NCBI GenBank assembly: GCA_029572955.1
Contig: JAKPQE010000004.1
Location: 1 to 37,528, forward strand
From: Pseudomonadota bacterium
Lineage (GTDB): Bacteria; Pseudomonadota; Alphaproteobacteria; Rhizobiales; JAKPQE01
DNA: 37,528 nucleotides
Reading direction: 5' to 3'
Part shown: in pieces, positions 11,495-37,528 of the stretch
Numbering within the stretch: the first letter of the stretch is position 1
How the letters are laid out: each line of letters begins with the position of its first letter
The notes under the pieces: generated by a model
What the model saw: the letters and a program-made list of their open reading frames with translations, nothing else
Databases searched by the model: none
What the model was told of the DNA's origin: nothing
Translations under genes and position numbers: made by a program

Positions 11495-11544
11495 CGCCTC
11501 GTCCGAGGCGAGATCGGGGAAAGCCCGGGTTGGCAAGACCCGGG
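11495..11544 (+). other. Two GC-rich hairpins in the tilS-ftsH intergenic region
   Basis: CGCCTC (11495-11500) pairs with GAGGCG (11505-11510), and CCCGGGT (11524-11530) pairs with ACCCGGG (11538-11544). Neither has a T run. They may be a leader structure of ftsH or a weak transcription pause after tilS. No clear heat-shock promoter was found here. Confidence 0.35.
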
Positions 11545-11624
11545 TGCGTTCCTATGTTTGTCCACGGAGCGCCCGGAATGCCCGACGAGCCGATTGTTTC
11601 GGCTGTCGTGACGAAGGATCGAAG

Positions 11625-13550
<1,926 letters not shown>

Positions 13551-18256: not shown

Positions 18257-18350
18257 CGCCGAGAACGATCTGTCGCACCTACCTTCGGATGAGGGTCGAT
18301 CATTCCGATTGACTCTCTCCCCCGCTCCCCGTATCGCAGTTCGCGGGACA

Positions 18351-18392
18351 CCCCTCCCCAACGAGGGGCGCCTATCTGAGAGGGTAGATATC
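18351..18392 (+). promoter_or_regulatory. Structured leader of serC (candidate serC-motif RNA)
   Basis: Two small hairpins lie directly before serC: CCCCT (18351-18355) with AGGGG (18364-18368), and TATCT (18373-18377) with AGATA (18386-18390), whose loop GAGAGGGT carries the ribosome-binding site. A conserved serC-motif RNA is known before serC-serA operons in alphaproteobacteria; the position and the two-hairpin form fit my recollection of it, but the consensus was not checked. Confidence 0.5.
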
Positions 18393-22645: not shown

Positions 22646-23545
22646 TCAGCCGCGCGCTTCCAGGCGCGGCCGCTCGAGTTCCCGCGCCGCCTTACGAACG
22701 GCTTTCTGGACCTTTTCGAAGGCCCGGACCTCGATCTGGCGCACCCGCTCGCGCGACACGCCGAATTCCTCGGAAAGCTCTTCGAGCGTTACCGGATCCT
22801 CGGCGAGGCGGCGCGCCTCGAAGATGCGCCGCTCGCGCTCGTTGAGGTCTTCCATCGCCGCGGCGAGCATCTGCCGGCGATTGTCGAGTTCCTCGCTGCG
22901 CACCAGGATCTGTTCCTGGTCGTCGGAATCGTCGACCAGCCAGTCCTGCCATTCGCCGGATTCAGAATCCGCCCGGAGCGGCGCGTTGAGCGAGGCGTCG
23001 CCCGACAGGCGCCGGTTCATCGAGACGACGTCGTCCTCGGTGACCCCGAGCTTCTCGGCGATATGGGCCACCTGCTCGGGCTTCAGATCGCCCTCCTCGA
23101 GCGCCGAGATCTGGCCCTTCACCTTGCGCAGGTTGAAGAACAGGCGCTTCTGGTTGGCCGTGGTGCCCATCTTGACGAGGCTCCAGGAGCGCAGGATGTA
23201 CTCCTGGATCGCCGCCCGGATCCACCACATCGCATAGGTCGCGAGGCGAAAGCCCTTGTCCGGATCGAAGCGCTTGACCGCCTGCATCAGGCCGACATTG
23301 CCCTCCGAGATCACCTCGCCGAACGGCAGGCCGTAGCCGCGATAGCCCATGGCGATCTTGGCGACGAGCCGCAGATGGCTGGTCACCAGCCGCTGCGCCG
23401 CGTCGCGGTCGTCGTGCTCGTGATAGCGCTTGGCGAGCATGTATTCTTCCTGCGGCTCCAGCATCGGGAACCGCCGGATCTCGTCGAGATAGCGTGCAAG
23501 TCCGCCGTCGGTTGCGGCAATGGCAGGAATGCTGGCCTGTGCCAA
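22646..23545 (-). CDS. rpoH: RNA polymerase heat-shock sigma factor RpoH (sigma-32)
   Basis: 299 residues from a TTG start at 23545 (preceded by GGGGGT), giving an N-terminus MAQASIPAIAATDGGLARYL that matches rhizobial RpoH proteins; no ATG or GTG sits at that position, and the frame open to 23884 is a shadow. Region 2 includes SHLRLVAKIAMGYRGYGLP and the core-binding helix; the RpoH-specific stretch QKRLFFNLRKVKG is clear; region 4 helix-turn-helix is VTLEELSEEFGVSRERVRQIEVRAFEKVQ. It directs transcription of chaperone and protease genes. Upstream, a -10-like CTATAT (minus strand, 23640-23635) may be its promoter. A matching RpoH-type promoter occurs before hsp20 at 36738. Confidence 0.95.
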   Translation of the reverse strand: MAQASIPAIAATDGGLARYLDEIRRFPMLEPQEEYMLAKRYHEHDDRDAAQRLVTSHLRLVAKIAMGYRGYGLPFGEVISEGNVGLMQAVKRFDPDKGFRLATYAMWWIRAAIQEYILRSWSLVKMGTTANQKRLFFNLRKVKGQISALEEGDLKPEQVAHIAEKLGVTEDDVVSMNRRLSGDASLNAPLRADSESGEWQDWLVDDSDDQEQILVRSEELDNRRQMLAAAMEDLNERERRIFEARRLAEDPVTLEELSEEFGVSRERVRQIEVRAFEKVQKAVRKAARELERPRLEARG

Positions 23546-35942: not shown

Positions 35943-36542
35943 TCAGGTCCGGCGGACCTTGATGACCTCGCCGGTATAGGCGTCGACGTAGATCACCACC
36001 TGGCGACCGCGCCCGTCGCGCGCCTTGAAGAGATAGCGGTCGCCGAGATCGTCGGCGAAACGCACCTTATTGTAGCCGAGGTCGTAGAGCATCGCCTTGA
36101 CCTCGCGAACCGACACGCGCGTCACGATATGCGGCCGCGGCCGCACGTCGTTGTCGTAGTAGTAGCCGGTGCCCGGCCACGCCGGCCCGTAGTAGTGGTC
36201 GTCCTGCGGCCGCGGCCGGTAGATCGGCGGCGGCACGCCCGGTCCATGCTGCCAGTTCTTGCCACCATGCGGCCCGCCATAGACCGCCCCGGGCGGCCGC
36301 GGCGGCGGCGACCACTGCGCCCCCGGCCGCGGTTCGTTCAGGTATTTCTCGCCGACCGGCGCACCGCTGATGCCCGGCGGATCGTAGCGCTCCTGGCCCC
36401 ACGGCCCCGGCATGCCCGACAGGCCCTCGACCTCGATGACGTCGGACGGCGCCTCGAACGGCACGACGAGACTGGCCGCGGCGGCCGGCATCGCCGTTGC
36501 CGCCAAGACACCGATCGTGACGACGATCTTACGCAAAAGCAT
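35943..36542 (-). CDS. Secreted proline-rich protein with C-terminal PepSY-like domain
   Basis: 199 residues. Signal peptide (about 1-22), an extended Pro/Gly/Tyr/His-rich middle (about 45-135, with PPPRPPGAVYGGPHGG and YYGPAWPGTGYYYDND), and a C-terminal domain (about 138-199) that looks like PepSY: SVREVKAMLYDLGYNKV, then YLFKARDGRGRQVVIYVDAYTGEVI. PepSY domains are periplasmic and thought to bind or inhibit proteins. ATG 36542 follows AAGGTGAGG; the frame is open to 36629. It is divergent from hsp20 over a 337-base region and single in its direction. Specific function unknown. Confidence 0.75.
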   Translation of the reverse strand: MLLRKIVVTIGVLAATAMPAAAASLVVPFEAPSDVIEVEGLSGMPGPWGQERYDPPGISGAPVGEKYLNEPRPGAQWSPPPRPPGAVYGGPHGGKNWQHGPGVPPPIYRPRPQDDHYYGPAWPGTGYYYDNDVRPRPHIVTRVSVREVKAMLYDLGYNKVRFADDLGDRYLFKARDGRGRQVVIYVDAYTGEVIKVRRT

Positions 36543-36659
36543 GTCACCCTCACCTTCTGGCCGGACCTCGACAGGACCCCTCGTGTCGCGCCTCCGGCTT
36601 TGCGACCCGATCCTGACCCACTCTGCCATCGCCCGGCTGAATGCCGGCGGAAGGCGTCG

Positions 36660-36674
36660 TTAATCCTTCATTCA
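36660..36674. promoter_or_regulatory. Near-match to a CtrA box before the PepSY protein gene
   Basis: TTAA-TCCTTCA-TTCA differs from TTAA-N7-TTAA at one base. It lies 118 bases upstream of the minus-strand PepSY gene. Weak evidence alone; noted because exact boxes occur at 16322 and 17402. Confidence 0.25.
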
Positions 36675-36737
36675 TGTTGGGTCTCGGACCGCTCCGCGCA
36701 ACGGCCCCGAGCGCACGCGACGCGCCTTGCCCGGCCC

Positions 36738-36766
36738 CTTGAAGCGCTCCGCCGAAATGCCCATCT
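36738..36766 (+). promoter_or_regulatory. RpoH-type heat-shock promoter before hsp20
   Basis: CTTGAAG (36738-36744) and CCCATCT (36760-36766), 15 bases apart, match the sigma-32 pattern CTTGAAA-N11-16-CCCCATNT. It implies a start site near 36773 and a leader of about 105 bases that holds the predicted RNA thermometer. Confidence 0.6.
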
Positions 36767-36773
36767 GATGCGT

Positions 36774-36879
36774 GCGGACGCCGATCCGGGTCCGCGACCG
36801 TCGTCGATGACAGGCCCGGCCAATCCGGCGGGCAAGAGGGACGACGGGAAAGGCAAAGTCGCTTCAAACGGAGGACAAA
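36774..36879 (+). ncRNA. ROSE-type RNA thermometer in the hsp20 leader
   Basis: Three hairpins occupy the leader. I: GCGGAC (36774-36779) / GTCCGC (36790-36795). II: CCGTCGTC (36798-36805) / GACGACGG (36840-36847), enclosing GCCCG / CGGGC. III: GTCGCTTC (36858-36865), loop AAAC, GGAGGAC (36870-36876). In III the Shine-Dalgarno GGAGGA is fully paired and faces TCGCT, the conserved U(U/C)GCU of ROSE elements with its single bulged G. This is the known heat-melting switch of rhizobial small heat-shock genes. Confidence 0.75.
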
Positions 36880-37344
36880 ATGCGTCAGTTCGACTTCAGC
36901 CCGCTCTATCGTTCGACCGTCGGCTTCGACCGTCTCTTCAACATGCTCGATTCCATGGGCGCGCCGGACGCCGGCCAGAGCTATCCGCCCTACAACATCG
37001 AGCGCACCGGCGAGAACGCCTATCGCATCACCATGGCCGTCGCCGGCTTCGGCGAGGGCGACCTCGTCATCGACGTCAAGGAAAGCACCCTCACCGTTCG
37101 CGGCGAGAAGCGCGAGGACAAGCCGGCTGGCTCCGAAATGCTCTACCAGGGCATCGCCGCCCGCGCCTTCGAGCGCCGCTTCCAGCTCGCCACCCATGTC
37201 GAGGTGAAGGGTGCCTCGCTCGAGAACGGCCTCCTGCACATCGACCTCGTGCGCGAGATCCCCGAGGCGATGAAGCCGCGCCAGATCGCGATCACCCGCA
37301 CCGGCGAGAAGGTCGCCCCGCAGATCGAGGCCGACGCCGCCTGA
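36880..37344 (+). CDS. Small heat-shock protein (Hsp20/IbpA family)
   Basis: 154 residues. Short N-terminal arm (FDFSPLYRSTVGFDRLFNML), then the alpha-crystallin domain (about 35-130: YNIERTGENAYRITMAVAGF, LTVRGEKRED, the FERRFQLATHVEVKGASLENGLLHIDL stretch around 95-122) and a C-terminal tail (KPRQIAIT). Known role: holds unfolded proteins in soluble form for DnaK/ClpB refolding. ATG 36880 lies four bases after GGAGGA, which is paired in the predicted thermometer. It is a single-gene unit ended by a strong terminator. Confidence 0.95.
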   Translation: MRQFDFSPLYRSTVGFDRLFNMLDSMGAPDAGQSYPPYNIERTGENAYRITMAVAGFGEGDLVIDVKESTLTVRGEKREDKPAGSEMLYQGIAARAFERRFQLATHVEVKGASLENGLLHIDLVREIPEAMKPRQIAITRTGEKVAPQIEADAA

Positions 37345-37406
37345 GCATCGGCCATCGCGTCGACGGAATTCGAAAGGCGCTCTTCCGGGCGCCTCAGATC
37401 ACTGAC

Positions 37407-37440
37407 AAACCCGTCGATATTTTCGGCGGGTTTTGTTTTT
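37407..37440 (+). terminator. Intrinsic terminator after hsp20
   Basis: AAACCCGTCGA (37407-37417) / TCGGCGGGTTT (37423-37433) form an 11-bp stem (one G-U) with loop TATTT and tail TTTTGTTTTT. A smaller hairpin AGGCGC / GCGCCT lies just before it (37375-37394). Confidence 0.85.
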
Positions 37441-37454
37441 GGTTCGGCGGGTTT
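37422..37454 (+). repeat. Short direct repeat at the right end
   Basis: TTCGGCGGGTTT occurs at 37422-37433 (the terminator 3' arm) and again at 37443-37454. The remaining bases to 37528 hold no gene that can be supported; an ATG at 37500 is too close to the edge to judge. Confidence 0.5.
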
Positions 37455-37528
37455 GGTTTGTCGGGAGAGGTTTTGGGCGGCCTGAGAGGCGTGGCGGCTC
37501 ATGCGGTTGCCGGTTTTGGGGCTTTGGT

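Follow-up and report, generated by a model that had tools for sequence, protein, structure and literature searches.

A probable ROSE-class RNA thermometer behind an RpoH-type promoter at the hsp20 gene of a Rhizobiales bacterium

The hsp20 gene, its promoter and the comparison sample

We conclude, with a probability of about 0.9, that the leader of the hsp20 gene at the end of a 37,528-nt stretch of DNA (the window) is an RNA thermometer of the ROSE class that is transcribed from an RpoH (sigma-32) promoter. Both elements, the RpoH-type promoter and the ROSE-type leader, are well supported by sequence comparison with relatives. The gene, with its ATG at 36880, is the last in the window and encodes a small heat-shock protein of 154 aa, for which IbpA is the closest NCBIfam model. 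The following features make up the locus:

36738..36744, + strand: -35 element of the RpoH-type promoter, CTTGAAG (promoter score 12/12)
36760..36766, + strand: -10 element of the RpoH-type promoter, CCCATCT, after a 15-nt gap
36773..36796, + strand: hairpin I of the leader (7/7 modelled pairs kept in the window; 5/7 changed on both sides among 22 relatives)
36798..36847, + strand: hairpin II of the leader (2/4 pairs kept in the register of the model; 4/4 covary in relatives)
36858..36876, + strand: hairpin III, the ROSE hairpin, in which GTC-(G)-CTTC pairs with GGAG-GAC (sole RNAalifold helix for 35 leaders)
36859..36863, + strand: anti-Shine-Dalgarno motif UCGCU (ROSE UYGCU) with the bulged G at 36861, opposite AGGA 36872-36875
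36870..36875, + strand: Shine-Dalgarno (SD) GGAGGA, read from the sequence
36880..37344, + strand: hsp20, IbpA type (Pfam HSP20 3.8e-18; NCBIfam IbpA 4.5e-50, under the cut-off of that model)
37407..37433, + strand: terminator-like hairpin 3' of hsp20, weak (2 such sites in 36500-37528 versus 1.0 expected by shuffles)

The transcript would start near 36772-36774, and the terminator-like hairpin suggests that it carries hsp20 alone.

Using the hsp20 protein as query, we searched 61 genomes, namely the genome of the window and those of 60 relatives (52 families by their labels, all of one order), and found matches in 59. Leaders were taken from the best locus of 50 of these 59 genomes (L003-L052) and from 80 loci on named contigs, the best 80 of at least 573 confirmed ones, which include Bauldia, Stappia, Aurantimonas, Rhizobium and Ancylobacter. 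The window itself (L003) enters the leader counts. Together, the 130 loci yield 126 leaders that are distinct in their last 40 nt and 128 that are distinct in their last 45 nt.

The initial annotation had read CTTGAAG-N15-CCCATCT as an RpoH promoter, and this is well supported: both boxes are in place and are conserved in the leaders of the relatives. In all 37,528 bases of the window, on both strands, they form the only match to the pattern CTTGAAN-N13-17-CC[ACT]ATNT. We scored promoters on a 12-point scale for CTTGAA and CCCATNT, with 10 or more taken as a good match. Such matches were detected in 111 of the 124 distinct leaders of at least 200 nt, versus 5.6% of random sequences with a similar composition, and in 42 of 49 leaders of that length from the set of best loci per genome (window included), versus 5.5%; the random controls are first-order Markov sequences and not exact shuffles. 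The gap between CTTGAA and the next box is 15-16 nt in all but one of the 111 leaders with a good match. Thus the CTTGAA and CCCATNT-type boxes of an RpoH (sigma-32) promoter are present here at a fixed spacing; the E. coli consensus, as quoted in PMC3669281, is NNCTTGAA-N13-18-CNCCATAT. From the -10 box to the ATG the leaders with a promoter match measure 89-181 nt (median 107), distances that would place hairpin I at the 5' end of the transcript.

In Bradyrhizobium, some ROSE genes are transcribed from housekeeping promoters. We consider it highly unlikely that the promoter match at hsp20 is fortuitous and that the gene is likewise transcribed from a housekeeping promoter. Such a reading could draw on the 13 of 124 leaders without a good RpoH-type match, some of which read CTTGC and CCTAT or CCTA at a similar position, but it has to contend with the full score of the window, with the uniqueness of the strict match and with the gap that is fixed at 15-16 nt in relatives. 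A sigma-70-like site is also absent from 36500-37528, which carries little weight because shuffled sequences yield almost none either.

The leader and its conservation among relatives

Folding of 36773-36900 predicted the three leader hairpins plus a short hairpin within the coding sequence, at -52.8 kcal/mol. In hairpin III, 36858-36865 pairs with 36870-36876, G36861 is the single unpaired base, and the whole SD lies within the helix. A three-hairpin leader whose last hairpin masks the entire SD with TCGCT and a bulged G had been proposed from the start, and the fold and its positions agree. Taken alone, the fold is modest compared with shuffles (z -2.0, 5/200 as good), and comparison with relatives was therefore needed.

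We found UYGCU before AGRA in 125 of the 126 distinct leaders (last 40 nt), as UCGCU in 85 and as UUGCU in 40; the exception, L119, has a different SD. A spacing of 2-16 nt between the two motifs was observed in all 127 leaders that bear AGRA (last 45 nt; L119 is without AGRA), versus 2.7% of exact dinucleotide shuffles. The same type of shuffle served as control for SD accessibility: the predicted mean unpaired probability of the SD at 37 C is 0.189 in the 126 leaders and 0.412 in 378 versions with shuffled upstream sequence.

RNAalifold was applied to 35 leaders, which include the window and, as L008 and L066, one genome twice; it returned only hairpin III, with its bulge. This consensus contains C-G/U-A exchanges, and the column of the bulged G is unpaired in it too. 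We also aligned 22 relatives, leaving out the window; the rows were chosen by eye from the 80 loci, badly aligning leaders were omitted, and the consensus had all three hairpins. Here 94.6% of cells are paired, and 55 cells have changed on both sides. Shuffles gave 20.6 such cells (0/500 as high) and slid controls no more than 17; over the slid controls the structure is favoured since it was derived from the same 22 rows. Besides the changes in hairpin I listed above, all four pairs of hairpin II have changed on both sides, with 79.5% of cells paired. Four of the five pairs of hairpin III are invariant and thus uninformative either way; the fifth is C-G in 11 relatives, U-A in 6 and U-G in 5, without a mismatch.

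The 22-relative alignment was also used to build a covariance model, R1, and a larger alignment of 79 loci was fitted to R1 and so leans towards it. In this model-fitted alignment, 97.2% of cells are paired versus 78.5% in shuffles, 238 cells have changed on both sides (62.7 in shuffles, no more than 53 in slid controls), and the variable pair of hairpin III is C-G in 49 loci, U-G in 19 and U-A in 11. Counted instead by how many pairs have a two-sided change at all, the 79 loci show no excess (11 versus 10.5 in shuffles; 301/500). A first pair count (Fisher P 2.3e-4) may have taken the first AGGA in AAGGAGAA, which is the wrong register, and we rely on the other covariation counts. The near-universal UYGCU and the covarying structure together exclude chance for the leader motif.

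They also bear on the idea that the promoter is real and the leader merely a stable, GC-rich 5' UTR, in which SD pairing follows from base composition and no temperature is sensed. The modest z of -2.0 of the single-sequence fold, the absence of an Rfam match and the absence of predicted melting at 42-50 C (both described below) would suit a leader of this kind. It would, however, leave UYGCU in nearly all leaders and the paired substitutions without an explanation, as well as SD masking beyond that of shuffled upstream sequence (0.189 versus 0.412 unpaired), and we regard it as extremely improbable.

The ROSE assignment draws further on R1. Although left out of the model, the leader of the window scored 52.5 bits (E 1.7e-7), the top score in its own genome, in a search in which 150 of 7138 first-look candidates were scored. 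Hairpin I aligned with all seven pairs, hairpin II with two of four, and hairpin III was kept. The inner part of hairpin II (36814-36833) matches the position seen in relatives but is one base out of register; in the window's own fold, neighbouring bases pair instead of those in the register of the model. Of the eight weaker matches in the same genome, the best (C136:82645, 23.8 bits, E 0.136) falls within a long open reading frame and was set aside as chance.

A search of all 80 named-contig loci served as a test of the choice of rows by eye. R1 found 79 of them at E <= 0.01, 57 of these outside the training set, and the one that it missed (L094) has only 36 nt of upstream DNA. Across the 61 genomes, 44 rows reached E <= 1 with R1. 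Those at E <= 0.01, 24 with the window's own, all lie directly 5' of an hsp20 gene, as do four of the remaining 20; one of the 61 genomes (G016) also contributed to the training set, as L066.

The Rfam ROSE model, RF00435, behaved differently. It gave no match up to E 10 in 36600-36960 and none at its cut-off (45 bits) in the whole window, and in the genome of the window it found nothing at the hsp20 leader and two weak matches elsewhere (E 1.96 and 7). Among the 61 genomes, searched with stricter filters, RF00435 passed its cut-off in only four; its 12 rows at E <= 1 all lie directly 5' of an hsp20 gene. The four passing elements do not precede the closest relative of the window gene; each stands before another, more distant hsp20 of its genome, with 49-56% identity to the one in the window. 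A scan of 20 named-contig loci with all Rfam models at E <= 1 detected ROSE in one (L102), below the cut-off (30.7 of 45 bits). Because recall by RF00435 is this poor among relatives (4/61), we did not take the non-match as absence, and the miss is taken as a limit of the model and not as a class-defining trait. In a small search, R1 recovered each of the four elements above the Rfam cut-off, with E between 1.2e-7 and 8.1e-4. Since R1 matches both the window and these accepted ROSE elements, homology places them in one family, and the view of the initial annotation that the hsp20 leader is of ROSE type is borne out by UYGCU, by covariation and by this homology. As a by-product, R1 detects ROSE leaders that escape RF00435: at E <= 0.012 it picks up 25 leaders of hsp20 genes in the 61 genomes (one of them from a genome in the training set), versus four over the Rfam cut-off.

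Elsewhere in the window, a serC leader RNA (RF00517) is present at 18341-18392, 5' of the serC gene, with 68.4 bits versus a cut-off of 35.

Our loci also include a second hsp20 clade, made up of a locus in the genome of the window (L140, contig 172, before 60150) and L143-L162. An RpoH-type promoter fits all 21 of these loci by a loose pattern, versus 6.5% of random sequences (first-order Markov), and 17 of 21 by a strict one, versus none. UYGCU occurs in the last 45 nt of 19 of the 21 leaders (a count without a chance rate), two of which have it well away from the SD. At E <= 1, R1 matches 13 of the 21 loci, several of them weakly, and leaves L140 unmatched. The second clade is possibly a divergent ROSE set, an assignment that is tentative because the matches are partial and weak.

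Temperature response and the wider locus

Two layers of control would act on this gene. Heat would raise transcription of hsp20 through RpoH. At low temperature, as predicted by folding and favoured by covariation, hairpin III would hide the SD by pairing GUC-G-CUUC with GGAGGAC; at heat-shock temperature, by analogy with the ROSE family, it would open, helped by the unpaired G, and let ribosomes bind. Hairpins I and II probably serve as a conserved scaffold. We found the RpoH-type promoter and UYGCU..AGRA together in 110 of the 124 distinct leaders of at least 200 nt, which suggests that relatives throughout the order commonly share the two-layer layout. Judged from sequence, two-layer heat control would be the usual condition in our sample of relatives, and the second hsp20 clade may have it too.

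Predicted melting was not seen when the leader was folded as 36773-36882: the SD stays below 0.1 unpaired from 20 to 50 C. At 37 C, isolated hairpin III has an ensemble energy of -6.4 kcal/mol (median of 125 leaders, -4.0) and is matched or exceeded in stability in only seven of these leaders, window included; the four elements that pass the Rfam cut-off range from -1.4 to -3.5. Through its seven-pair hairpin III, the thermometer of this species may have a hotter opening point, possibly offset by pairing with the coding region; the wider reading to which this belongs is one that we hold at somewhat less than even odds.

The pairing in question joins AAGUCG (36856-36861) to CGACUU (36891-36896) in the coding part, and it appears in the fold of 36773-36920. 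Predicted accessibility of the SD in the window varies with the length folded, from 0.008 unpaired with 3 nt of coding sequence to 0.10 with 20 nt and 0.46 with 45 nt. With 60 nt it reaches 0.53 at 37 C; the corresponding median of 132 leaders is 0.117. The initial annotation had staked the ROSE assignment on a match to the Rfam models and on a masked SD: the match did not appear, and the SD is paired in the leader alone and about half open with 45-60 nt of coding sequence. In these folding models, the half-open SD could mean that the thermometer of this species is weak, or it could be an artefact of folding. A weaker form of our preferred explanation, compatible with it, would be that the leader is ROSE but that the coding-region competitor keeps the SD partly open, so that regulation runs mainly via RpoH. 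The raised accessibility and the alternative pairing speak for it; the dependence of the prediction on folded length counts against it, as does the order of transcription, by which hairpin III could form before the competitor is made. We judge this variant unlikely, and retain a ROSE thermometer that masks the SD as the best explanation. Counting against that explanation are the missing Rfam match, the absence of predicted melting, the high stability of hairpin III, the SD half freed by coding sequence, the two hairpin II pairs lost in the register of the model and the 13 leaders that have no good promoter match.

Two further heat-shock-related genes are encoded in the window:

22646-23515, - strand: rpoH (RpoH equivalog, above cut-off), 13.4 kb from hsp20
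11544-13550, + strand: ftsH (FtsH, above cut-off), 23.3 kb from hsp20

The presence of rpoH and ftsH had been read as making the window a self-contained two-layer heat response. Both genes are indeed there, but at these distances from hsp20, and relatives do not preserve the proximity of rpoH to hsp20. In 21 relatives the best matches for hsp20 and rpoH share a contig, at a gap of 0.8 kb in one (G037) and of at least 88.6 kb in the other 20 (linear distances). We therefore ruled out that rpoH and hsp20 form one locus, as they are close in only 1 of 21 relatives. In the exceptional genome, hsp20 and rpoH are divergent neighbours (contig 127, L027, 294-2378).

Comparison with known ROSE systems

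The hsp20 leader combines UYGCU opposite the SD, a bulged G, three hairpins with the SD in the last, and an adjoining small heat-shock gene, together with homology to accepted ROSE elements through R1. PMC9450479 and PMC4166951 give as traits of ROSE elements UYGCU, a bulged G, two to four hairpins and a small heat-shock protein (sHSP) gene. By the traits given in these papers and in PMC3989490, the leader resembles the rhizobial ROSE elements (Bradyrhizobium hspA, Agrobacterium hspAT1 and hspAT2, the Mesorhizobium loti class A sHSP gene, RF00435) in having UYGCU opposite the SD, the bulged G, several hairpins of which the last holds the SD, and an sHSP gene. Unlike the known rhizobial elements, it is unmatched by the Rfam model, and it reads UCGCU where the four elements that pass the Rfam cut-off read UUGCU; its seven-pair hairpin III is also more stable than theirs.

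RNA thermometers reportedly also occur 5' of ABC transporter genes, according to a separate study (PMC11342760). The ibpA leader of Pseudomonas, a gammaproteobacterium, has two hairpins, versus three in the window. In PMC3669281, sigma-32 transcription and a ROSE-like thermometer are both demonstrated experimentally for Pseudomonas ibpA, where, as in the window, a promoter of the CTTGAA..CCATAT type is followed by an SD-masking ROSE leader. For rhizobia, PMC3989490 describes ROSE 5' of sHSP operons in M. loti and Sinorhizobium meliloti, reports rpoH dependence in S. meliloti, and suggests multiple control. Two-layer control by RpoH and ROSE is thus not new and is already in print (PMC3989490, PMC3669281). 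What we describe is ordinary biology, well shown; as far as PMC3989490 describes the dual control by RpoH and ROSE in M. loti and S. meliloti, the layout in the window is the same and only the species differ.
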